DNA of 33,575 nucleotides from Campylobacteraceae bacterium. Its GTDB lineage: Bacteria; Campylobacterota; Campylobacteria; Campylobacterales; Sulfurovaceae. The stretch spans positions 1 through 33,575 of the forward strand of contig JALXFN010000003.1 of NCBI GenBank assembly GCA_027068975.1, given 5' to 3'. Of the stretch, positions 1 through 28,366 are shown piece after piece (position 1 is the stretch's first letter; each line of letters opens with the position of its first letter). Made by a program: the position numbers and the translations under genes. The notes under the pieces were generated by a model. It was given only the letters and a program-made list of their open reading frames with translations, had not been told where the DNA came from and searched no databases.

Positions 1-1755
1 CTTTTAAACCACTCTATTGAGATTGTTGATAAAACCTCAGAGAATATTTTAGATAAAATTATTGATAAGAATTTAGATTTTGTTCAAACAAATCTGAAAA
101 GTCATGAATTAAGAGCTAAAAATGAAAAAACCTTATCACTTCTGCGTAATAAAGATATTCAAGAACTTTATGTCCTTTACCCTTCCAATAATCAACTTTT
201 TTTCCTTCTCGATACAGCCAAAGAGGATAGAGGAGAAGTGGATGAACTCTTTAGTCCCAAAGTTTCGAATGCATTTCTTGAGGTATTACACACAGGGAAA
301 AAAACAACATATATTCAAGATAATATTGAAAGTTTAGGATTTACATTAATTAAACCAATTATCCAAAACAAAAAGGTTAAAGCTTTTCTTGTTGTCGATT
401 ATACTAAAAAGAGTCTCTCAGTATTAAGTAAATTACTTACATTAAGTGTAAACAGTATCAATATGGCACTCTTTTTTATATTTATTATTTTTTTACTTAT
501 TATCTATTATCTAGGTTATCGTAAATATGTAAAATATAAAATCTATTATAATACCAATACCCACACATTAAATAGAGTCTACTTAAGTGAAAATTATGAA
601 AAAATTGAATTCAAAAAATATTATATTGCCTTGGCCGATTTAGATTTTTTTAAACGTATCAATACAATGTATGGTAGAAAAAATGGGGATATTTTAATTG
701 ATTCTGTTATAAAAACTATTAATGTTTTATTGAAAAAAGATGATGTATTTATTGAGTATAGTGGTGAATCTTTTTTGCTATTTATTTTGAAAAGTAAAAC
801 AAGTGAACAAGAGTTTAAAGAGCTTTTAGAAACCATTTGTCTTCATATTGAAAGAAAAAGTTTTAGGCTACCCAATAAGAGGGTGAAGCTAACCATATCT
901 ATTGGAGCTTTGATAGAGACAGAGTTAGAGAAATCGCTGCAAGATGTCATTCATAAGGCAGATACAGCACTCTATGAGACAAAGCATCGAGGACGAAATT
1001 CTGTTGCTTATTTTGACATGACACAGAGTCAGAAACTCTATAGAAACAGATTAAAAGAGTTAATAGAGTCCGATAAGTTGATTTGTCACTATCAGCCTAT
1101 TGTGAATTTAAATAATAGGTCAATACACCATTACGAGGCATTACTGCGTATAAAAGATGGTAGTAATATGATTTTTCCAGATAAAATCTTACCTGACTTA
1201 GAAGACAGTCATCTTTATAGTTTTCTTTCAAAGAGAGTGATTGAGTTTAATATACAAAAATTAAGAGAGTATACAAATATAAAAATCTCTATTAATTTAA
1301 GTGTTGATGATTTATTAAATGATGCTATTCTTGCATTACTTGCTGAAAACTCTGACTTGGCTGATAGACTTCAAATAGAGGTTTTAGAAAATAAAAGTAT
1401 AGATTATATGAAACTTGAAGTCTCTATTCAAAAATTAAAAATGTTTGGATATAAAATAGCTATTGATGATTTTGGTGCTGGTTATGCCAATATGAGCCAC
1501 CTGTTAAATCTTTCTATTGATTTTTTAAAGATAGATGGTTCGCTTATTAAAGAGATACATCATAATAAACGTGCTCATACGCTGGTTAAAGCACTAGGGA
1601 TTTTCTGTAAAAACAATAACATTAAGGTCATTGCTGAGTTTGTAGAGAATGAAGAGATAGTAGATATTTTAAAAGAGATGTATATTGAGTATGGACAAGG
1701 GTGGCATTTTTCTAAAGCACTTCCTTTTGATGAGTTAGACAAAACTCATCTTTAA
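1..1755 (+). CDS. Membrane GGDEF/EAL cyclic-di-GMP protein, 5' end outside the window
   Basis: The reading frame is open from base 1, so the gene starts upstream and 584 codons are visible; the internal GTG at 238 is not a credible start. The first 150 or so residues look like an extracytoplasmic sensor region and end in one hydrophobic segment (about 463-522). A GGDEF domain follows, but its signature is Ser-Gly-Glu-Ser-Phe (760-774), so diguanylate cyclase activity is probably lost. The C-terminal EAL domain keeps EAL (1135-1143), an INLS Asn, a Glu in EVLEN, DDFGAGY, FLKIDG and AEFVE, consistent with an active c-di-GMP phosphodiesterase. The likely role is signal-dependent breakdown of c-di-GMP at the inner membrane, perhaps with GTP binding by the degenerate GGDEF as a regulator (inference). 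Its stop overlaps the end of convergent der by 4 bases. Confidence 0.9.
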   Translation, partial: LLNHSIEIVDKTSENILDKIIDKNLDFVQTNLKSHELRAKNEKTLSLLRNKDIQELYVLYPSNNQLFFLLDTAKEDRGEVDELFSPKVSNAFLEVLHTGKKTTYIQDNIESLGFTLIKPIIQNKKVKAFLVVDYTKKSLSVLSKLLTLSVNSINMALFFIFIIFLLIIYYLGYRKYVKYKIYYNTNTHTLNRVYLSENYEKIEFKKYYIALADLDFFKRINTMYGRKNGDILIDSVIKTINVLLKKDDVFIEYSGESFLLFILKSKTSEQEFKELLETICLHIERKSFRLPNKRVKLTISIGALIETELEKSLQDVIHKADTALYETKHRGRNSVAYFDMTQSQKLYRNRLKELIESDKLICHYQPIVNLNNRSIHHYEALLRIKDGSNMIFPDKILPDLEDSHLYSFLSKRVIEFNIQKLREYTNIKISINLSVDDLLNDAILALLAENSDLADRLQIEVLENKSIDYMKLEVSIQKLKMFGYKIAIDDFGAGYANMSHLLNLSIDFLKIDGSLIKEIHHNKRAHTLVKALGIFCKNNNIKVIAEFVENEEIVDILKEMYIEYGQGWHFSKALPFDELDKTHL

Positions 1756-3158
1756 TCGTCATCTATTCTCTGTCCACGTTTACGTCCACCTATATCTAGT
1801 GGTACTCCTTCAAAATCAAACTTTTCTCTAAATATATTGGCTAAGTAGCGTTTGTATGAGAAGTGTAAACCATCAGGTCGGTTCATAATAATGGCTATTT
1901 TAGGTGGCTTTGTCTCATATTGTGTTGCAAATTTAATCTTTACAACCCCACCATTTACCGTAGGAATATGGTGTCTATTGATAGCATATTTCAGCACCTC
2001 GTTTAATTTAGATGTTGGTATTCTCTGTTTATATCGTCCATAAATATCTACTATCTCATCGAGTATTTTATGTACTCTTAAACCTGTTTTTGCCGAAACA
2101 GTTATGAGTGGTGCATAGTGTAAAAACTTTAGCTCATCACGAATATTTTCAACTGCTTTTTTATATCTCTCTTCATCATCTTTATGTATGTCCCATTTAT
2201 TTAGAACAATTAGACAACCTAATTTGTATTTTTCTACTAAGTTTGCTATTCTCTCATCTAGTTCAAGAACACCTACTGTAGAGTCTATCATAAGCAGAGC
2301 AATATCTGCATTGGCTAACATAGCCTCTGTTCTCTCAAAAGCATACTTCTCTATTCCTAAAATTTTACCACGTCTTCTAATTCCTGCTGTATCAACAAAA
2401 GTAATCTTATAATCTCTATACTCCATCTCTTCATCTATAGGGTCAATAGTAGTACCTGCAACAGGTGAAACAACAGCACGTTCTTCTTTTAGGAGGGCAT
2501 TTAGAAGAGAACTTTTACCAGTATTTACACGTCCTATAATGGCTACTTTTATCTCATTGTCCTCTTCTTCTTCATCTGCAACCTGAACCATTTCAACAAT
2601 ATCTTCAAAGCTTAAATCTTCATCTTCATCAGCTTCCAAACTCTCTTCCTCTTCACGTTCAGGAATGTACTCTTCTAGCCAAGCATAAAATTTATTCATA
2701 TAACGGTTGTGACTGACCGACATTGGAAAAGTTCTCTCTGCTCCAAACTCTAAAAAGTCCCAATAACGTAAAGCTTCATCTTTATCATTGTCAATTTTGT
2801 TTACAACCAAAGCAATAGGTTTCCCTAATTGTTGTAGACTGTAAAAGAGTTCTTTGTCTTCTGCCTCTGGAATATTTTTACCATCAACAACATAAACAAT
2901 AATATCAGCCTCATCAGCAGCACGAAGAGATAATTTTTTTACAATTGAAAACATCTCTGTTGAGTCATCTATCCCCCCTGTGTCTATCACTTCAAAGTCA
3001 CGATTACCTGAGATAGTCACTTGGCGTTTTTTGATGTCACGGGTTGTTCCCACTACATCAGAAGTGATAGCATCACGTTCTCTTAATAATCTATTAAAAA
3101 GGGAACTTTTCCCTACGTTTGGTCGCCCTAAAATGGCTACTTTTTTGAGTTGTGTCAT
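1752..3158 (-). CDS. der: Ribosome biogenesis GTPase Der (EngA)
   Basis: This 468-residue protein has two tandem GTPase domains, the hallmark of Der, which acts in maturation of the 50S subunit. The first domain shows GRPNVGKSS, DTGGID and NKID. The second shows GRVNTGKSS, DTAGIR and NKWD, followed by a C-terminal KH-like domain with a basic end (GGRKRGQR). A long acidic linker rich in Glu and Asp joins the two G domains. Length is in the normal range. The ATG at 3158 starts directly before the first beta strand of domain 1 (MTQLKKVAILG). The gene converges with the upstream GGDEF/EAL gene, and its 5' side is separated from the channel gene by a pair of inverted palindromic repeats. Confidence 0.97.
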   Translation of the reverse strand: MTQLKKVAILGRPNVGKSSLFNRLLRERDAITSDVVGTTRDIKKRQVTISGNRDFEVIDTGGIDDSTEMFSIVKKLSLRAADEADIIVYVVDGKNIPEAEDKELFYSLQQLGKPIALVVNKIDNDKDEALRYWDFLEFGAERTFPMSVSHNRYMNKFYAWLEEYIPEREEEESLEADEDEDLSFEDIVEMVQVADEEEEDNEIKVAIIGRVNTGKSSLLNALLKEERAVVSPVAGTTIDPIDEEMEYRDYKITFVDTAGIRRRGKILGIEKYAFERTEAMLANADIALLMIDSTVGVLELDERIANLVEKYKLGCLIVLNKWDIHKDDEERYKKAVENIRDELKFLHYAPLITVSAKTGLRVHKILDEIVDIYGRYKQRIPTSKLNEVLKYAINRHHIPTVNGGVVKIKFATQYETKPPKIAIIMNRPDGLHFSYKRYLANIFREKFDFEGVPLDIGGRKRGQRIDDD

Positions 3159-3191
3159 GCTTATTCTTTCTATGTTTGTTTCTATATTTGT

Positions 3192-3216
3192 GTAGGGTGT
3201 AGTCCCCGACTACACC
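3192..3216 (+). repeat. REP-like element 1 (GTAG + hairpin)
   Basis: GTAG (3192-3195) is followed by a perfect hairpin with arms GGTGTAGTC and GACTACACC around a CCC loop. It pairs with an inverted copy at 3272-3296 and matches the copy at 9065-9089 at all but one loop base. Confidence 0.85.
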
Positions 3217-3271
3217 ATCAAATAAGAACTTATTATTTAAAAATTGAATTTTGTTTGAGTTTGGTTTTAAC

Positions 3272-3296
3272 GGTGTAGTCGGGGACTACATCCTAC
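3272..3296 (-). repeat. REP-like element 2 (inverted partner of element 1)
   Basis: On the minus strand this reads GTAG, then GATGTAGTC and GACTACACC around CCC; one base differs from element 1. The two copies lie 55 bases apart, head to head, between mscS and der. This is the arrangement called a REPIN or BIME in other bacteria. The transcript of the channel gene region could fold it as one long hairpin. Confidence 0.82.
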
Positions 3297-3331
3297 GGTT
3301 AAAAATTATTGAAATTATAGCAGACTTTTAG

Positions 3332-4516
3332 TTATTTTTGGTTATCTAAAACTTTAGGCATACTTTCAATATAAAGAGACTGAGAAGGAAAAGCAAAAGC
3401 TACATTATTATTCTCTACTATTTTCATAATATTGATATTGACCTCTTCTTTGATTTTTAAGTACTTTTCCCATTTTGATGTTTTAGTAAATGTATAGACT
3501 AAAATCCCCAGTGAGCTGTCATCAAAGGTAGTAAATTTGACCAGCATCATTTCATTTTGTGCTATGCCTTTATGATTCCTTAACATGGTTTTTATATCAG
3601 CAATTACGTGTTCAATCTGCTCACTACTAGCATCATAGGTAAGTCCTAGTTTTATTTTAATTCGTCTTATTCCACGTCTTGAAAAGTTTTCAATGGGACT
3701 ATTGGCTATGACTTGGTTGGGTAGGGTGATAAGTGACTTTTTAAACGTACGGATTTTGGTGGTACGCATACCTATATCTTCGACTACTCCTTCGACTTCA
3801 TCTATTCTTATCCATTCACCTATGCGTATAGATTTGTCTAAAAGTAGGGCGATAGAGCCAAAAAGATTGGCAGCAGTATCTTTTGCAGCTAAGGCAAAGG
3901 CTAAACCACCAATCCCTAAACCTGCCATGAGACCTGCCACGTTAACTCCCCAAAGTTGCAAAATAGCACCCAATCCAATAGAGAGTACAATCACTCTTAT
4001 AACGGTTAACAAAAAGTTACCCATTTCATGGGACAACTCAGGGTTAAACCGTTCTGTAAAGTGGTAGATAACGCCTCTTAGGGCATGTACCATAGCATAA
4101 ATAGCCCAAAAGAGGTTAAACATAATCATGGTATTGATTATTTTCTCAACAATAGGAGTTTCTAAAAAAAGTAGAGCAAAAAACAGTCGTACCCCTATAG
4201 TAAAAAATACAAAAGAAAGTGGTCCTCTTAGTGCAGAGAGAATACGGTCATCATAATACGTTTGTGTTTGCTTAGCTAAAGGTTGAAGTACTTGAATGAC
4301 TAATTTTGCAAACATCTTTCTAAGCAGAAGAAAGAAAAAGAGTGAAAATATGGCTGCAAGAATATTACCTAAAGGTATGTCAAAATATAGTTTACTAAAA
4401 AAAGTACCCTTTTCTGATAAGTAAAGTTCATTCAAATAACTCTGTATTTGAGGGAAGAAATTAATATCTAATTGCTTAATAATCTCTTCTGTATTTGTAG
4501 TATTGTGTTCATTCAT
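3332..4516 (-). CDS. MscS-family mechanosensitive ion channel
   Basis: The 394-residue protein has several hydrophobic segments followed by the pore helix typical of MscS. This is the Gly/Ala-rich stretch VAGLMAGLGIGGLAFALAAKD, written here only as a family signature, leading into LFGSIALLLD. The beta domain (IRIGEWIRIDEVEGVVEDIGMRTT) and the C-terminal alpha/beta vestibule follow. It is longer than E. coli MscS (286 residues) and closer to YnaI-type channels with extra N-terminal helices. The expected role is release of solutes from the cytoplasm on osmotic downshift. It is divergent from the DUF3108 gene, with 138 bases between the two starts. A specific paralogue name cannot be assigned. 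Confidence 0.92.
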   Translation of the reverse strand: MNEHNTTNTEEIIKQLDINFFPQIQSYLNELYLSEKGTFFSKLYFDIPLGNILAAIFSLFFFLLLRKMFAKLVIQVLQPLAKQTQTYYDDRILSALRGPLSFVFFTIGVRLFFALLFLETPIVEKIINTMIMFNLFWAIYAMVHALRGVIYHFTERFNPELSHEMGNFLLTVIRVIVLSIGLGAILQLWGVNVAGLMAGLGIGGLAFALAAKDTAANLFGSIALLLDKSIRIGEWIRIDEVEGVVEDIGMRTTKIRTFKKSLITLPNQVIANSPIENFSRRGIRRIKIKLGLTYDASSEQIEHVIADIKTMLRNHKGIAQNEMMLVKFTTFDDSSLGILVYTFTKTSKWEKYLKIKEEVNINIMKIVENNNVAFAFPSQSLYIESMPKVLDNQK

Positions 4517-4592
4517 ATTTTTTCTTTAGTTTATAGTAGTTTTATTAGATTAACTTTAATTTTAGCAAAATAAACTATGATGTCATATCATA

Positions 4593-13205: not shown

Positions 13206-13233
13206 AGTTCAATAATCAATATTGGAGAAAATC

Positions 13234-13485
13234 ATGAAAACACAAACAACCATACGTGTAGATGAGTTAAATTATCAATTAGCTAAAGAGATTTTAGCCA
13301 AAATAGGATTGAGCTATTCACAAGCCATTAGTGTCTTTAACAACATGATAGTAATGAATAATGGTTTACCTTTTGATGTAAAAATTCCTAATAAAGAGAC
13401 AGAAAAAGCATTAAAAGAGCTAGAAAATAGAGAGGGTAAAAGCTTTAAAAATGTAGATGATTTATTTGCTGATTTGGACAAATAG
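13234..13485 (+). CDS. RelB/DinJ-family antitoxin
   Basis: This is the antitoxin of a type II pair and the likely DNA-binding autorepressor. The N-terminal ribbon-helix-helix reads KTQTTIRVDELNYQLAKEILAKIGLSYSQAISVF, with the DinJ-type ending GLPFDVKIPN, and the flexible C-terminal part would wrap the toxin. I chose ATG at 13234 (83 residues) rather than the TTG at 13222 because GGAGAA (13224-13229) is correctly placed for it and RHH domains start directly with this strand. The stop codon is immediately followed by the toxin ATG. Confidence 0.9.
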   Translation: MKTQTTIRVDELNYQLAKEILAKIGLSYSQAISVFNNMIVMNNGLPFDVKIPNKETEKALKELENREGKSFKNVDDLFADLDK

Positions 13486-13758
13486 ATGTATGAAATATTT
13501 AGAACAAGTAGTTTTAAAAAAGATTACAAAAAACTCTCTATGCAAGACAGAGAGATAGTTAAAGAGGTTGTTACTATTTTAGCAAAGGGAGAGGAATTAG
13601 CACAAGAGTATAAAGACCATAAACTTATTGGTAACTATCTTGGGTGTAGAGAGTGTCATCTTCGACCTGATTTATTATTGATTTATAGAATTGACAATAA
13701 TATTTTAGAATTAGCCTTGACTAGAGTTGGTAGTCACTCTAAATTATTTGGGAAATGA
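13486..13758 (+). CDS. YafQ-family mRNA interferase toxin
   Basis: The 90-residue RelE-superfamily protein matches the YafQ subgroup, ribosome-dependent endoribonucleases. Visible residues corresponding to the E. coli active site are His-45, His-58, Asp-62, His-84 and Phe-88 in DHKL, RECHLRPD and GSHSKLF. Where E. coli has Trp after the Asp, this protein has Leu. The gene starts directly after the antitoxin stop (TAGATG), indicating coupled translation. It appears intact and therefore probably functional. Confidence 0.92.
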   Translation: MYEIFRTSSFKKDYKKLSMQDREIVKEVVTILAKGEELAQEYKDHKLIGNYLGCRECHLRPDLLLIYRIDNNILELALTRVGSHSKLFGK

Positions 13759-14095: not shown

Positions 14096-14365
14096 ATGAA
14101 TGCAAATACTCCTCGTATAACAGCAAGAGTAGATTTTGATACACAAGAGCTTTTGTCTAAAGCAGCAGCTATTGTTGGAATATCTAGTATTAATTCATTT
14201 GTTTTGAATGCTGCAATTGAAAAAGCAAAGAATATTATTCAAAAAGAGAATACCTTAAAACTGAGCCACAGAGATGCCATGTTGCTTGTTAAAGTACTTG
14301 ACGAACCTACGTCAAACCCACGACTAAAACAGGCAATGAAAAACTATAAGACTAAAACTCAATGA
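14096..14365 (+). CDS. DUF1778 (TacA-like) antitoxin
   Basis: The 89-residue protein has the DUF1778 ribbon-helix-helix start PRITARVDFDTQELLSKAAAIVGISSINSFVLNAA, followed by a linker and the C-terminal toxin-binding part (SHRDAMLLVKVLDEP). Such proteins neutralise GNAT acetyltransferase toxins that modify aminoacyl-tRNA. AAAGGAG is well placed before the ATG. Its stop overlaps the start of the toxin reading frame (ATGA at 14362). Because that toxin is broken, this antitoxin is probably an orphan. Confidence 0.88.
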   Translation: MNANTPRITARVDFDTQELLSKAAAIVGISSINSFVLNAAIEKAKNIIQKENTLKLSHRDAMLLVKVLDEPTSNPRLKQAMKNYKTKTQ

Positions 14366-14845
14366 TAAGTATAGCTCTTGACAAAAATAGACACGATAGA
14401 AAGCGTTTTGATTGTGGTGTAAAAGAGTTAAATACCTACTTACAGATGATGGCGAATCAGCAATCTTCTAAAGACAATACTCGAACTTTTGTTTTAGAAG
14501 ATGAAAAAAATCCACAATTTATTATACGCTAACTATGGCTACTATAGATTTAAATTCTCTACCTTTAAATCTACAGAAAAAATATCATAATGCAACTACA
14601 GCAGGGCTTATTGCACGTTTAGATGTTGACAAAAGATATAAAGGAGAAGGTTTTGGAGAATGGTTGTTGATGTATTAGAAAGACTTTTAGATGCTAGTGA
14701 TTCTGTGGCTTTTCCCTTGATTGTTGTTGATGCAAAAGATGGAGTTGCTGAGTTTTATGAAAAGTTTGGTTTCTTGACTCTATTAGATGAAGACAATAAG
14801 TTGTTTATTACAATTGACAGCGTTCGGAAAAGTTTTAAAGATTAA
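14362..14845 (+). pseudogene. TacT-like GNAT toxin gene broken by two frameshifts
   Basis: The first frame begins ISIALDKNRHDRKRFDCGVKELN, the typical start of TacT-type toxins, and stops at 14530-14532. The homology continues in a second frame from about 14520 (YYTLTMATIDLNSLP, then the acetyl-CoA region GLIARLDVDKRYKGEGFGEWLL), which stops at 14676-14678. A third frame from about 14669 gives DVLERLLDAS, VVDAK and EFYEKFGF to the end at 14845. Joined, the three parts give a full-length toxin with the catalytic Tyr region intact. Two independent frame changes make decay much more likely than programmed frameshifting. A sequencing error at both sites is possible but less likely. Confidence 0.85.
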
Positions 14846-22884: not shown

Positions 22885-23636
22885 TTTTTTAGCTCTTTGT
22901 TTAGTTCATAGAGTTTCATGTATTTGAAAAAGTTTGTAACCATGTGAGAAAAAGCAATAATAAGCCCTGCATAGCCATCTAAAAAACCACGTTTTAAGAT
23001 ATAGGTTCTAAAAAAAGAGTAGTGAGCGTTAAAAAAGGCTTTAAGAGGTGAGGAAGATTTTTTCCCTGCTTTGTCTTGGGCAAAGAGGGTTGAGTATTGG
23101 TCAGCTTTGGCAATAAATTCACTTATGCTAGAGTAGGGGTAGTGTTGCACTGCACCTTGAAGCATCTCTTTTTTTAATCCATCCTCTATGATGTGTTCAT
23201 GCACATGTTTGTTGGTAAAGTGAGTTACTGTTTTGTTGTAAAGACGAACAATCACATCATCACCCCAACAGTGTTTTATGGGTATCTCTTTGTAGTAGTT
23301 GCTACGTAAAATAGAGTAGAGTGTGTCAGTGGAGAGTTGAAGTTGTTGAAGATGTTGAACAAATTCTACACTAAGCACTTCATCACTGTCAAGAGATAAA
23401 ATCCAATCATTGGTAGCGTAAGAAGTAGCTTTGTTTTTAGTCGCTCCAAAACCTAAGAACTCTCCTTCTATAACGGTAACATTGGAGTAGTTTTTTGCAA
23501 TCTCTTTGGTTTTGTCACTAGAGTTGTTCAAGTACAAAATAACCTCTGAAAACTCTTTTAAACTCTCTAAAGAGGCTTTAATGGTCTGTTCTGAATCTTT
23601 AGCAATCATTACAACAGAGATGTGGTTAATCGACAA
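22881..23636 (-). CDS. WaaE/KdtX-like GT2 LPS core glycosyltransferase
   Basis: The 251-residue family 2 glycosyltransferase shows ISVVMIAKDSEQTI at the N terminus, LYLNNSSDKT, the donor-site LSLDSDEVLS (DxD) and the C-terminal HVHEHIIEDG followed by FFRTYILKRGFLDGYAG, a pattern typical of WaaE-type enzymes that add glucose to the first heptose. Such enzymes work at the inner face of the cytoplasmic membrane. It overlaps the kinase-like gene by 11 bases upstream and the GT9 gene by 4 bases downstream, so it belongs to the same operon. The exact sugar is not determined. Confidence 0.88.
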   Translation of the reverse strand: MSINHISVVMIAKDSEQTIKASLESLKEFSEVILYLNNSSDKTKEIAKNYSNVTVIEGEFLGFGATKNKATSYATNDWILSLDSDEVLSVEFVQHLQQLQLSTDTLYSILRSNYYKEIPIKHCWGDDVIVRLYNKTVTHFTNKHVHEHIIEDGLKKEMLQGAVQHYPYSSISEFIAKADQYSTLFAQDKAGKKSSSPLKAFFNAHYSFFRTYILKRGFLDGYAGLIIAFSHMVTNFFKYMKLYELNKELKK

Positions 23637-24369
23637 CGGGAACTCCTTTTAGACGCTTTTTGAAATTTTTTTTATTTTTATGTTTTTGGTTAAGCGTTAA
23701 CATAGTCTCTTTAAAAGCTTCACTACAAGAGTAGTGTTTTTGGTACTCATCGGCAACGATGCTTAAGACTTCATCACTCGCCCAAAGTTTTGAGAAGTTT
23801 TTAGCCCTTGCTTTTTCGTCAAGCTCAAAAAAACTCATACGGTTAATGTCTACAATTTTAAAAATAAACGCTTCATCCTCTTCTTTTATAAGAATGTTTC
23901 CTGGAGAGTAGTCGTTATGGAAAATCTGAGCGTTATGTAACTCTAGTGTAAAACGAGCAAAAGCTCTAAATATAGCCTCTCTTTTAGGAAAATTTTTATC
24001 TAAAAGTGGCTCACGAATGGTAAAATCATAATCAAAATGCTCACTAACAAAATAACTTTGGTGCAGTAGACCACCTTTATAAAACTCAATATACCCAATA
24101 GGTTTAGGAACAAATGCACTAATTTTAACCGAATATTCATACGATTTTTTAGCTTTGCTTTTACGAAAAAAAGAGTAGGCAACACGGTTTAAAAGATGAG
24201 GAACTTTAAATGCTTTTACCACTACCTTTTGTTGTTCATGTTCAAGTACTTTAATCTCGTTTCGTGCTTTATGAATGGTGTTGTTGTTTTTAGTAAAATG
24301 CTCTTTAATATTTTTTAGAAAATCCGTAAATTCATGAGCATATTTTGGGTTTATTTCGTATTTTATCAT
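23626..24369 (-). CDS. Lipopolysaccharide core kinase (WaaP/Kdo-kinase family)
   Basis: The 247-residue protein belongs to the protein-kinase-like LPS kinases. The nucleotide-binding Lys region is KVVVKAFKVPHLLN, the catalytic loop is FHNDYSPGNILI (Asp as base, Asn as metal ligand) and the metal-binding segment is FKIVDINRMSFF. Family members phosphorylate heptose or Kdo of the inner core, increasing negative charge and outer membrane stability. It is the first clear gene of the minus-strand core operon; the start lacks a strong ribosome binding site and overlaps the upstream short frame by 38 bases. Confidence 0.85.
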   Translation of the reverse strand: MIKYEINPKYAHEFTDFLKNIKEHFTKNNNTIHKARNEIKVLEHEQQKVVVKAFKVPHLLNRVAYSFFRKSKAKKSYEYSVKISAFVPKPIGYIEFYKGGLLHQSYFVSEHFDYDFTIREPLLDKNFPKREAIFRAFARFTLELHNAQIFHNDYSPGNILIKEEDEAFIFKIVDINRMSFFELDEKARAKNFSKLWASDEVLSIVADEYQKHYSCSEAFKETMLTLNQKHKNKKNFKKRLKGVPVVD

Positions 24370-24589
24370 GGGGTATTTTATCAGATAATCTATCTATATC
24401 TTCTTGACTGTTTTTTATTTTTAATTTTTTTAACATTTCTTCTATATTATTTTGATTGATTTTCATAATAATTGTCTGATTATAATTACTACTGTTTAAT
24501 ACCTCTGCAATCTGTTTATAATAAAGAGGATAAGCATGATTGGAATCCATAAAGTATTGGTTTTGTGTAGAGAGAGCATTTTTAAACAT
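24332..24589 (-). CDS. Short hypothetical protein, possibly the C-terminal remnant of a longer gene
   Basis: The frame encodes 85 residues from ATG 24589, and is open a further 14 codons upstream without a start. The readable upstream part (ITSIFGEINHF) seems to continue the protein, which suggests a 5'-truncated gene. The segment NQYFMDSNHAYPLYYKQIAEVL recalls the C-terminal Asp-x-x-His region of SGNH-type hydrolases in polysaccharide loci, but that link is weak. The end overlaps the kinase gene by 38 bases in another frame, unusual for two functional genes. Function unknown. Confidence 0.4.
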   Translation of the reverse strand: MFKNALSTQNQYFMDSNHAYPLYYKQIAEVLNSSNYNQTIIMKINQNNIEEMLKKLKIKNSQEDIDRLSDKIPHDKIRNKPKICS

Positions 24590-24627
24590 AAAATGGTTGA
24601 TTTCCCCAAATATGCTAGTAATACATT

Positions 24628-24826
24628 TTGATTACAGGAAGAAAAGAAGATGAAAAATCCTAAAAAATACGCCTCTGAATTGGAAAATAAAATAACGGTT
24701 TTTAATGAGCAGACTAACTATAAATTTATGACAACTGTGGTTATGTTTACGCTTAATAGTGTTAAGGAGAATGAGTATGCAGGGTATCTTTTGGCAGATA
24801 GTGTTTTGGTGGGGGAGGTTGTTTAA
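24628..24826 (+). pseudogene. Internally deleted remnant of a DUF234-type ATPase gene
   Basis: From TTG 24628 the frame reads MITGRKEDEKS and stops at 24661. This matches the start of the intact neighbour (MFIGRKDELKE). An overlapping frame from ATG 24650 to 24826 encodes 58 residues, of which YASELENKITVFNEQTNYKF and ENEYAGYL align with the C terminus of the neighbour (YQELREKISVFNEQTKYRY, ANEYYNEL). Both ends of a paralogous gene therefore survive, fused by a deletion of roughly 400 codons with a frame change. Confidence 0.7.
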
Positions 24827-24903
24827 AAAATTCAGCTCTATAAATAAGTAAAAATTGGTTTCTATCGTGATTATCTAATATTTGCTTAAGTTATTAATAC
24901 TAT

Positions 24904-24934
24904 GAATTATCTCCTAAAAAACAAGAGATAATTC
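24904..24934. repeat. Inverted repeat upstream of the ATPase (hairpin 1)
   Basis: Perfect 10-base arms GAATTATCTC (24904-24913) and GAGATAATTC (24925-24934) enclose an 11-base loop. It is not followed by a T-run on the plus strand, so it is not an obvious terminator. Confidence 0.65.
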
Positions 24935-24947
24935 TCTCTATTATTAT

Positions 24948-24994
24948 ATTATAACGAATTATATACTAAAAATATGTGGATAATTCGTTATAAT
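24948..24994. promoter_or_regulatory. 15-base perfect inverted repeat upstream of the ATPase
   Basis: Arms ATTATAACGAATTAT (24948-24962) and ATAATTCGTTATAAT (24980-24994) are perfect complements with a 17-base spacer, ending 26 bases before the ATG. It overlaps the expected promoter (TATAAT 24989-24994) and would suit an operator. Confidence 0.7.
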
Positions 24995-25020
24995 AAGCAA
25001 AAAATCAATAAGGTTTTAAA

Positions 25021-26439
25021 ATGTTTATAGGAAGAAAAGATGAGTTAAAAGAATTAGAGAGTTTACTTAAAAAAGACTCTTCAACTTTTACTGTTATTTA
25101 TGGTCGGCGTAGAATTGGTAAAACTGAAACAGTTCGACACTTTATAGAAAAGTTCAATCTAAAGAGTATTGAGATTACAGGCGTGTATGGTGCTACAAAA
25201 GCAACTCAAATTAATGCATTTGTAAGAAAGATTAATAGAGCTTCCCGAGGAGAAATTTCAACGCAACAAAAACTTAAAGAGTGGCAAGATGCTTTTTTTC
25301 TTCTTGAAGACTATATTGAAACATTGACAGACGAGAAGAAAGTTATTTTTTTAGATGAATTTCCATGGCTTGATACCCATCGTTCAAATTTTTTAAGTGC
25401 TTTTTCTGAGTTTTGGAATGATTTTTGTACAAGACGAAAGGATATTGTGCTTATTGTCTGTGGTTCAGCTACTTCGTACATGATAAACAAGATTATTAAA
25501 AATAAAAAGACACTGCACAACAGAGTAACCCAAAAGCTACACATGCACCCATTTAAATTAAAAACTGTAAAAAAGTTTTTGGAGAGCAAACACTGTAACT
25601 ATAGCGACAAATCAATAGTCGATACCTATATTGTACTAGGTGGTGTTGCTAAATATCTTGAAGATATGGATTGTACAAAACATCAACTTGAAAATATCTC
25701 TTATCACTGTTTTAATCAAAATGGGCTACTTGTTGAAGAGTATCAAGAGCTGTATCACTCACTGTTTCAAAATGCACAATGGCATTACAAGATAATGAAT
25801 CTTCTCTCTAACAAATGGAGTGGTTATATTCAAAAAGATATTACCAAAGAGCTAAATACCTCTGCTTCAACGATTAATAAGGTATTAGAAGAGCTAGAAC
25901 TTTCGGGCTTTATCTCTTCTGTTACAATGTTTGGTAAAAGAAGTAGGGAAAAAATATACAGAGCTACTGACCCATTTTCCTATTTTTACAACAGATGGAT
26001 GAAAGAACAACAGAGTATGGATTTTAAAAAAGTAGCTCTCTCTCAACGCTACAAAATATGGGCTGGTTTTGCATTTGAAAATATTTGTCATATCCATACC
26101 CATGAGATAAAAGAGCAACTTGGTGTCTCAGGGGTGAATACGCAAACACACTACTGGCAACACAGAGGAGAAAAAGGAGCTCAAATAGATATGCTACTTG
26201 AGTACGTGGATGGAAGTAAAAATATTGATATTATAGAGTGTAAATATTATGATGATACTTTTACTATCTCAAAAAAGTACTATCAGGAGTTAAGAGAAAA
26301 GATTTCTGTCTTTAATGAGCAGACAAAATATAGATATAACATACGGCTCATATTTGTTACTCCTTTTGGTGTTACTGCTAATGAGTATTATAATGAGCTG
26401 GTTTATAAAGATATTAGGATTCATGATATTTTAAATTAA
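25021..26439 (+). CDS. AAA ATPase with winged helix and DUF234 nuclease-like domain
   Basis: The 472-residue protein starts MFIGRKDELKELE and has Walker A (YGRRRIGKTE), Walker B (VIFLDEFPWLD) and sensor 1 (IVCGSATSYM) of the archaeal-type ATPase clade. A winged helix follows (DITKELNTSASTINKVLEELELSGFI). The C terminus carries a DUF234 region with QIDMLLE and DIIECKYY, matching the D...ExK pattern of PD-(D/E)xK nucleases. Proteins of this class are common on accessory DNA; roles in mobile element maintenance or defence are suspected but unproven. It splits the LPS locus and has a deleted paralogue immediately upstream. Nothing in the neighbouring genes suggests a direct partner. Confidence 0.88.
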   Translation: MFIGRKDELKELESLLKKDSSTFTVIYGRRRIGKTETVRHFIEKFNLKSIEITGVYGATKATQINAFVRKINRASRGEISTQQKLKEWQDAFFLLEDYIETLTDEKKVIFLDEFPWLDTHRSNFLSAFSEFWNDFCTRRKDIVLIVCGSATSYMINKIIKNKKTLHNRVTQKLHMHPFKLKTVKKFLESKHCNYSDKSIVDTYIVLGGVAKYLEDMDCTKHQLENISYHCFNQNGLLVEEYQELYHSLFQNAQWHYKIMNLLSNKWSGYIQKDITKELNTSASTINKVLEELELSGFISSVTMFGKRSREKIYRATDPFSYFYNRWMKEQQSMDFKKVALSQRYKIWAGFAFENICHIHTHEIKEQLGVSGVNTQTHYWQHRGEKGAQIDMLLEYVDGSKNIDIIECKYYDDTFTISKKYYQELREKISVFNEQTKYRYNIRLIFVTPFGVTANEYYNELVYKDIRIHDILN

Positions 26440-26500: not shown

Positions 26501-28366
26501 TTGAAACTGGATTTTCTAAAAAAGTACTTTAGCATCTTTTTAACTGTTTATACTGTGGTACTTTTAACAAAAGTCATCTTTTATTTTTATTTACATGAAT
26601 CATTTTCGGCTTTCTCTTTTCAAGAATCTCTTTATGCCATGGTATGGGGTTATAAGTTTGACTTTGCCATTGCAGGGGTAGTTGCTTTTTTAGCTACGCT
26701 TTTTGATTGGCGTAAAAAACTTTTTGCTTTTGTAGGTTCCCTTTTAGTGGTTTCTATATTTTTGTTACAGATGGGAGACATACTCTATTTTAATGAAGCA
26801 AATAGACACATAGGTTATGAGATAACCGATACCTTTACCGATGCAAGTAGCCTTTTTATGACAGCTTATGGACAACATATGCTACTTACTTTTAGCTCTT
26901 TAATTTTTGCTATTTTGCTTTTTATAGGACTCTATAAATGGTTTTCTAAATTTCCAAAAATTGAGTTGAGTAAAATTTATATGGTGGAAAAACTCATTTT
27001 AATTGTTTTAACTGTTTTCTTTGTAAGAGGTATGGCACAGGGAATTCCCTTAAACCCTTGGCAGTCCAATCAAATAGGAGAGGGCAAGTTAGCAAACTTA
27101 GCACTCAATAGCTCTTACAATGTACTCTATGTTCTAGCCAACAGTGGTAAGAAGTTAAAGAAGATGAAGCTTCCTATAGTAGATAAAGATGAGATGGAAG
27201 TAGTTTTTAAAGCGTTGTACCCTAAAGTTGAAACAAAAGAAACTACGCCACAACTTAAAAAACCCAATATTGTATTTCTCTTTTTAGAGAGTTGGAGTGC
27301 TGTCAATATGAAGAGTTACGGTTACCCCAAATCAACCACTCCTTTTTTTGATGAGATGTTAAAAAAGTCTGTTCATCCAAAAGCCATGATAGCAAGTGGT
27401 CACCGAACCACAGAGGGGATATTTGCAACGTTGGTCTCTTTCCAAAATCCACTAGGTAGAAGTGTGGCAAAGAGTAATCTTCAAGGCTTTGATTATACTT
27501 CAATTATTAAAATTCTTAAACAAAAAGGCTATGGCTCTGCATTTTTTCAAGGAACTTCAAAAGAGACCAGTGGTACAGGCTCTTTAGCCCAAGATTTAGG
27601 TTTTGCTAAAAGTTATGGTAAGCATGATGTTAAAGAGAGACTTTACCCTGAAAACCATTGGGGTGTTCAAGATGTAGACTTGTATAACTTCTCTTTAAAA
27701 AAGATAGATAGCATGAAAAAACCTTTTGTTATAGGGATTAATGGTGCAACTACTCATGATGATGTCTTGCCAAAAGGTATGGAACGTAAAGCATTTAGTG
27801 AAGATAAAGCCTACAACAAACAACTCAATGCACTTCATTTTGCCGATATGGCTTTAGGGGAGTTTGTTAAAAAAGTTGAAAAAAAGTACCCCAATACACT
27901 GTTTGTCTTTTTTGCTGACCACTGTGGAGGGGTAAAGGGTAATGCTTTTGAAAATTATCTTATTCCTTTTGCTCTTTGCCATAAAGATTTGAAGCCTAAA
28001 AGTTATGATGTGGTACTCTCTCAACGAGACATTGCCCCTACGGTCTATAATTTGGCTATAGGAGACTATAGAAAAGATAAGATAAACTTTAGTGGAAAGT
28101 CACTGTTAGATGAGCAGGGATTTTTTGCAGATTATTATCATAATGGTGTTTTGGGCTGGGTAGAAAGTGGTAAAATATTGGAACTAAACCTTGCGACAAG
28201 CAAAGAGAAATGCTATGATTTGGAATCATTTAAAAACAGAGAGATTGAGTGTAGTGATGAGGTACGCTCTTTTAAAAAGCGAATGCTCTCGTTTACAGAG
28301 CTTTCACAGTCGCTTCTTTTCGAGGGAAAGACCGATAAATTTATAGAGTACAGGAATAAAAAGTGA
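26501..28366 (+). CDS. LtaS/OpgB-like phosphoglycerol or phosphoethanolamine transferase
   Basis: The 621-residue protein has about five N-terminal membrane helices and a C-terminal sulfatase-fold domain outside the membrane. Visible active-site elements are the metal-binding Glu in FLFLESWS, a Thr nucleophile in GHRTTEGIFATLVS and the FFADHCGG Asp-His pair. Such enzymes move polar head groups from phospholipids onto cell-surface polymers. In a Gram-negative LPS locus, decoration of lipid A, core or periplasmic glucan is likely (inference). The start is TTG at 26501, supported by AAAGGGG (26488-26494). The stop overlaps the next gene start (GTGA). Confidence 0.87.
   Translation: MKLDFLKKYFSIFLTVYTVVLLTKVIFYFYLHESFSAFSFQESLYAMVWGYKFDFAIAGVVAFLATLFDWRKKLFAFVGSLLVVSIFLLQMGDILYFNEANRHIGYEITDTFTDASSLFMTAYGQHMLLTFSSLIFAILLFIGLYKWFSKFPKIELSKIYMVEKLILIVLTVFFVRGMAQGIPLNPWQSNQIGEGKLANLALNSSYNVLYVLANSGKKLKKMKLPIVDKDEMEVVFKALYPKVETKETTPQLKKPNIVFLFLESWSAVNMKSYGYPKSTTPFFDEMLKKSVHPKAMIASGHRTTEGIFATLVSFQNPLGRSVAKSNLQGFDYTSIIKILKQKGYGSAFFQGTSKETSGTGSLAQDLGFAKSYGKHDVKERLYPENHWGVQDVDLYNFSLKKIDSMKKPFVIGINGATTHDDVLPKGMERKAFSEDKAYNKQLNALHFADMALGEFVKKVEKKYPNTLFVFFADHCGGVKGNAFENYLIPFALCHKDLKPKSYDVVLSQRDIAPTVYNLAIGDYRKDKINFSGKSLLDEQGFFADYYHNGVLGWVESGKILELNLATSKEKCYDLESFKNREIECSDEVRSFKKRMLSFTELSQSLLFEGKTDKFIEYRNKK

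Follow-up and report, generated by a model that had tools for sequence, protein, structure and literature searches.

The forward-strand gene at 25021-26439 of the window (the whole 33,575-nucleotide stretch analysed here) encodes a 472-aa protein and belongs, by its sequence, to the defence candidate family PDC-S27. It is best explained as a mobile member made up of a single gene, with a putative antiphage activity. Palindromes in the PDC-S27 promoter are new in this analysis. The architecture of the protein, its invariant catalytic residues, the promoter palindromes with their enrichment across the family, the family's patchy distribution and the history of a relic beside the gene were all computed directly; binding, repression, cleavage and a phage target are what we infer, and on balance we lean, if only slightly, towards reading the protein as a self-repressed, single-gene STAND nuclease. 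According to this proposal, the protein would bind two palindromes over its own promoter through its winged helix and, while bound, would hold its own transcription low. A signal linked to infection would then alter the ATP-bound state of the protein, and in that altered state expression would rise and the nuclease would cut DNA.

In the accessible text of PMC12988326, PDC-S27 is a published but unvalidated phage-defence candidate, consisting of an ATPase fused to a PD-(D/E)-X-K domain, with 3,503 archaeal and 4,562 bacterial occurrences. It is among the commonest unvalidated defence candidates, and the accessible literature on it reported no binding, cleavage or antiphage assay. The accessible text of PMC12988326 mentions neither a winged helix nor promoter palindromes, whereas both are present here. 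The window gene was identified from the list of open reading frames, Pfam, PADLOC and the predicted fold. The PADLOC model of PDC-S27 (PDLC04984) matches residues 2-470, which amounts to the full length of the protein, with 517 bits, and the same model matched all ten of the other family proteins scanned. In Pfam, the protein contains ATPase_2 (PF01637; 81.4 bits, above the cut-off of 33.2) and narrowly passes for DUF4143 (29.8 against a cut-off of 28.1 bits). A preliminary description of this DNA had reported an intact "DUF234-type" ATPase. The intact reading frame is indeed there, but we dropped the DUF234 membership because PF03008 reaches 17.9 bits, under the Pfam cut-off of 22.5, even though one database relative carries the DUF234 annotation. 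PF01637 is thus common to this protein and the archaeal DUF234 ATPases, which combine PF01637 with PF03008, whereas PF03008 falls below its cut-off here.

The structure model of the 472-aa protein, made with 46 sequences, has a mean pLDDT of 94.6. (Alignment A2 took in 45 of 80 database loci, leaving out L142, which has an internal stop, and 34 others.) By our reading of this predicted model, an ATPase occupies residues ~1-235, a winged helix ~250-320 and a PD-(D/E)XK nuclease ~330-472. The model displays the STAND arrangement: as in SSO1545 and CED-4, a P-loop ATPase precedes the helical and winged-helix domains. Residues 1-326 matched SSO1545 of Sulfolobus (2fna) with Z 21.7 over 299 residues at 2.9 A, and PABY2304 of Pyrococcus (2qen) with Z 21.3; the next structural matches were CED-4 (Z 17.7) and plant NLRs, in a range of Z ~16-17.7. 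The ATPase and winged-helix arrangement is therefore common to our protein and these archaeal proteins over ~300 residues, but the match is confined to residues 1-326 and does not take in the nuclease domain. IniR, a mycobacterial STAND regulator, likewise places an SSO1545-like ATPase in a promoter-binding protein; according to the accessible text of PMC5760070, however, it carries a MalT-like domain and binds DNA through a different domain, activates another operon, and is described there with no mention of a nuclease.

The C-terminal domain, when folded alone, gave a pLDDT of 93.6, and its best VIA matches were PD-(D/E)XK nucleases, with Z from 9.1 to 7. These included AF1548 (Z 9.1, 107 residues), NucS (9.0), EndoMS (8.7) and FokI (7.8), as well as the defence nucleases Can2/Card1, LmuA and McrC at Z ~7.2-7.4. 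Foldseek on the same domain returned nothing at 1e-3 or below, its best value being 1.7e-3. NucS/EndoMS, AF1548 and the Lamassu protein LmuA have the restriction-type nuclease fold in common with this domain, but their partners differ from those in PDC-S27 and sequence identity is low (9-17%). All 94 of the family proteins aligned have the Walker residues G28, K34, T35, D112 and E113 unchanged, and likewise the nuclease triad D390, E406 and K408, whose codons span 26188-26244 on the forward strand as computed from the open reading frame. The ATPase and nuclease activities of the family are therefore probably maintained by selection. Altogether, one chain is predicted to combine a PD-(D/E)XK nuclease of restriction type with a winged helix and a STAND-type ATPase.

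The family is patchily distributed: members occur in 17 of the 175 genomes examined from the taxonomic family and in 8 of 397 genomes in a phylum-wide sample, and the best 80 database relatives are nearly all from Bacteroidota, judging by the names in the record titles. Family copies elsewhere adjoin ordinary genes, such as PTS genes and those for MurJ and a short-chain dehydrogenase. We typed ten proteins, of which eight are neighbours of five family copies, and found no defence-island context among the typed neighbours. One plasmid-like contig (L053, positions 1-3699 of G023:C134) carries three PDC-S27 genes in a row, together with genes that by eye resemble those for replication, ParA and ParB. 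In the best-supported account, in which the product is a self-repressed single-gene STAND nuclease, the PDC-S27 gene travels between sites together with its promoter.

What that promoter contains was worked out by upstream comparison and a search for inverted repeats. Palindrome 1 (24904-24934) has the form GAATTATCT-N13-AGATAATTC. Palindrome 2 (24947-24995) has arms of 16 bases and a gap of 17, with half-sites at 24956-24964 and 24978-24986, and scored z 5.8, a value that none of its 40 shuffles reached. A -10-like box, TATAAT (24989-24994, forward strand), stands at its edge, in a region conserved in five orthologues; a consensus promoter scan listed no promoter at this box. The four half-sites begin at 24904, 24926, 24956 and 24978, so that they are spaced by 22, 30 and 22 bases, all near whole helical turns, and TATAAT directly follows the last of them. 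Both palindromes are kept in the five orthologues, while the outer flanks differ. Across 35 genomes, the exact window palindrome occurred at three places, in front of this gene and of its orthologue in a second genome of the genus (G022) and as a solo copy in a third (G013). A near match to palindrome 1 on contig C11 of the same genome as the window was discounted, as it falls within a coding gene and lacks palindromy.

For each gene, we then took the strongest inverted repeat among the 130 bases before the start codon and compared its score with those from 40 dinucleotide shuffles. The discovery set consisted of the window and 122 loci, with start codons assigned mechanically and with Bacteroidota dominating; genes were left out when these 130 bases overlapped an open reading frame by more than 30 bases, ran off the contig or contained N, while two pairs of contigs present twice (L053/L145 and L071/L099) and broken copies such as L083 were included. 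The 100 family genes had a mean z of 4.46, and 72 of them beat all 40 shuffles, compared with a mean z of 0.62 and 13% for 462 other genes from the same loci (Mann-Whitney p 1.3e-36). After reduction to less than 60% identity, 47 of 58 family genes still did so, with a mean z of 5.01. Additional half-sites were common; those within 260 bases had a mean identity of 0.82, against 0.67 in shuffled sequence. The effect was weaker in a held-out set, where the count was 3 of 10 close members with mechanical starts (without L259 and L261, which have upstream overlap) and 6 of 13 with corrected starts (with both of these, and with L273 left out), against 4 of 29 other genes. Members without a palindrome exist, among them L281 of the held-out set and the first copy in L053. 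Among seven plasmid or phage members examined, the palindrome was absent from the Haladaptatus member and weak in those of Malaciobacter (z 1.8) and M. jannaschii (z 2.1).

Other subfamilies have different palindromes in the same place, and two more of these seven members, from Emticicia (Bacteroidota) and Butyrivibrio (Bacillota), have the half-site TTGGCGGAAT in common. The palindrome thus stands before most members examined, its sequence changing by subfamily with palindromy kept, and it offers a ready candidate ligand with which binding assays, footprinting and structural studies could begin. The accessible texts within our scope, which included PMC12988326, PMC13356809 and PMC5760070, reported no operator or palindrome for PDC-S27 and described neither its regulation nor a ligand. 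The palindromes also provide a way to ask if regulation and attack use one site. One doubtful extension of the self-repression model would have them do so: PDC-S27 would be a one-protein immune switch, a STAND ATPase seated at its own promoter on a multi-half-site operator, in which the same DNA-bound assembly silences its own gene and then, when an infection signal releases or switches it, directs the nuclease. If that were true, the operator would give the family its first identified DNA ligand and might show what PDC-S27 recognises in invaders.

The promoter feature may reach beyond PDC-S27. The AAA_14 ATPases, which are distant relatives forming a separate family, also have a milder excess of upstream palindromes (7 of the 24 scorable loci out of 27). 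AAA_14 matches were found in 34 of 34 genomes of the genus, there are 27 in the 2.8-Mb genome to which the window belongs, and the upstream region of one AAA_14 gene (L224) has a palindrome with arms of 20 bases.

It could be argued that the gene is an ordinary neighbour, namely a conserved hypothetical ATPase that, with a pseudogene, sits in a variable LPS locus and has no link to defence, and that the palindromes serve an unrelated host regulator. The PDC label comes from a statistical embedding and, for most PDCs, has no assays behind it (PMC12988326, accessible text), and the region does gather accessory genes, with two toxin-antitoxin sets ~10 kb from the ATPase gene. A host regulator nevertheless leaves unexplained that the palindrome sequence differs per subfamily with palindromy kept across phyla, and that the window motif is nearly unique in its own genome. 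We regard this explanation as unlikely.

The main rival to self-repression holds that the gene is selfish and that the palindromes serve it as a DNA target or landing signal: its nuclease would recognise a palindrome and help the gene insert beside it. REP/RAYT-like and homing systems provide the comparison for such a gene. Several observations are in keeping with this idea. The gene moves as a unit: in a comparison of the window with G022, the conserved stretch begins ~12 bases past the gmhA stop in G022 and ends at about the ATPase stop. The solo copy of the window palindrome (L248, positions 220-250 of G013:C57) occupies a 54-base intergenic spot in a genome without PDC-S27. Finally, palindrome similarity follows the ATPase and nuclease domains as much as the winged helix. 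When palindrome distance was compared with protein distance among the 69 of 94 proteins with strong palindromes, the partial r was 0.04 for the winged helix (p 0.16), 0.10 for the recognition stretch (p 0.018) and 0.19 for the ATPase (p 0.002), so that the palindrome tracks the whole protein and the winged helix is not singled out; this result and the solo copy also speak against the self-repression reading. Against a landing signal, the palindrome is situated at the promoter, beside the -10-like box; dispersed copies are nearly absent, the three exact sites in 35 genomes being all there are; the sites have no common flanking sequence; and palindromes 3' of the gene are barely commoner than for other genes (35% of family genes and 29% of others). 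Taken together, these data make a landing or cutting site quite improbable, and we continue to favour an operator.

A further alternative is a role in RNA, where the palindromes would fold into a 5' hairpin and so attenuate either translation or transcription. Many of the palindromes do lie 50 bases or less from the start codon, but the gaps of 10-20 bases would make long loops, the window has no Rfam match, and palindrome 2 ends in the -10-like box and hence presumably lies upstream of the transcript. Arm mismatches, although small in number, were 8 GT and 9 AC in the family, which is no wobble excess, compared with 17 GT and 6 AC in the palindromes of other genes. The lack of a wobble excess points to a DNA site; for this reason we dropped the hairpin as a first choice and consider it very unlikely.

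The preliminary description had looked elsewhere for the target of these ATPases, proposing that a site of recurrent insertion in the LPS locus might help to define it. The intact gene is flanked by a Kdo/WaaP-type kinase-like gene (23626-24369, reverse strand; PF06293, 32.3 bits) and by a sulfatase or phosphoethanolamine-transferase-like gene (26501-28366, forward strand; PF00884, 119.8 bits). Reading the junctions by eye, we found that the conserved DNA edge beside the kinase-like gene stops near 24382 and that conservation resumes at the sulfatase start. The same interval is occupied in G023 and G018 by an MBOAT acyltransferase (PF03062, 148 bits for the G023 copy) and a 342-aa partner that has no Pfam match, and in G009 and G030 the kinase-like gene directly adjoins the next glycosyltransferase. 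A survey of 15 genomes of the genus that have the kinase-like gene, in some of which the stretch examined was short, found a family member on that stretch only in the window and in G022. The G022 orthologue is 90% identical and belongs to the same LPS cluster, but it sits at a different position, right behind gmhA. Because only two of the 15 genomes have the gene here, at differing positions, and copies occur elsewhere, we dropped an LPS-specific target. Family copies are found outside the LPS locus, beside ordinary genes and at differing positions, and the insertion site therefore defines no target; the LPS locus is not a dedicated one. The palindromes conserved at the promoter provide a better lead to it.

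The case for repeated arrivals here, on the other hand, is stronger than could be known from the preliminary description. The relic at 24662-24812 (forward strand), within an open frame at 24650-24826, is the 3' end of a PDC-S27 gene, and over 151 bases its DNA shows 91% identity with the 3' end of a complete family member on another contig of the same genome (C28), with an abrupt start at 24662. A search of that genome picked up the relic independently (24659-24817, E 2.8e-5). Its protein, of which ~50 codons survive, is 89% identical to the C28 gene and 81% to a gene in G025, and 36% identical to the intact neighbour; it is therefore the tail of a gene from another PDC-S27 subfamily and no copy of the neighbour. 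Because the relic and the intact gene come from different subfamilies, more than one arrival is indicated, and by this sequence comparison at least two family members of different subfamilies reached the spot between the kinase-like and sulfatase genes, which is variable in relatives. The corrected history implies that members of different subfamilies can land at one spot and decay there.

The preliminary description had instead taken the relic for what was left of a paralogue, one of two tandem copies, with both ends kept. Its C-terminal piece is homologous to such ATPases and lies upstream on the same strand, and this part of the account holds; the origin as a neighbour copy does not. A tandem duplication followed by deletion would suit the adjacency, the common strand and the common C-terminal motif FNEQT, but it is scarcely credible and is already refuted by the 89% against 36% protein identity and the DNA match to C28, unless gene conversion from C28 overwrote the end of the relic.

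Aligning the fragments with the ATPase likewise upheld only the C-terminal piece. The supposed N-terminal match, LITGRKEDE (24628-24654, forward strand), is in another reading frame than the C-terminal piece. A profile made from the starts of family members gives it -1.7 bits, compared with 28.5 bits for the true start. Random stretches scored at least as well in 28% of cases at 296 bases and in 5% at 60 bases, and with these values we no longer treat the GRK remnant as an established fact. Intact close relatives of the relic begin VAREEEL or VERK, without GRK. The literal tetrapeptide GRK[DE] is rare, being found in 0.075% of random 296-base stretches, and on sequence grounds a GRK remnant from some other family copy is unsupported and not disproved.

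Between the conserved edge of the kinase-like gene and the relic is orphan DNA (24382-24661), which contains most of an 85-aa reverse-strand open reading frame at 24332-24589. Our first impression of this frame as the end of the acyltransferase partner was dropped, because convincing relatives were absent in 34 genomes. Another degenerate member of the relic's subfamily, which lacks its middle part and contains a stop codon, was found at L083 (positions 3782-4546 of G002:C16). Farther upstream in the window, at 14096-14845, a TacA-type antitoxin (PF08681, 74.9 bits) is followed by three short frames resembling a broken GNAT-type partner; two GNAT-like fragments tested there had no Pfam match. 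Genes for a RelB antitoxin and a YafQ toxin (13222-13758) lie upstream of the surface-polysaccharide genes.
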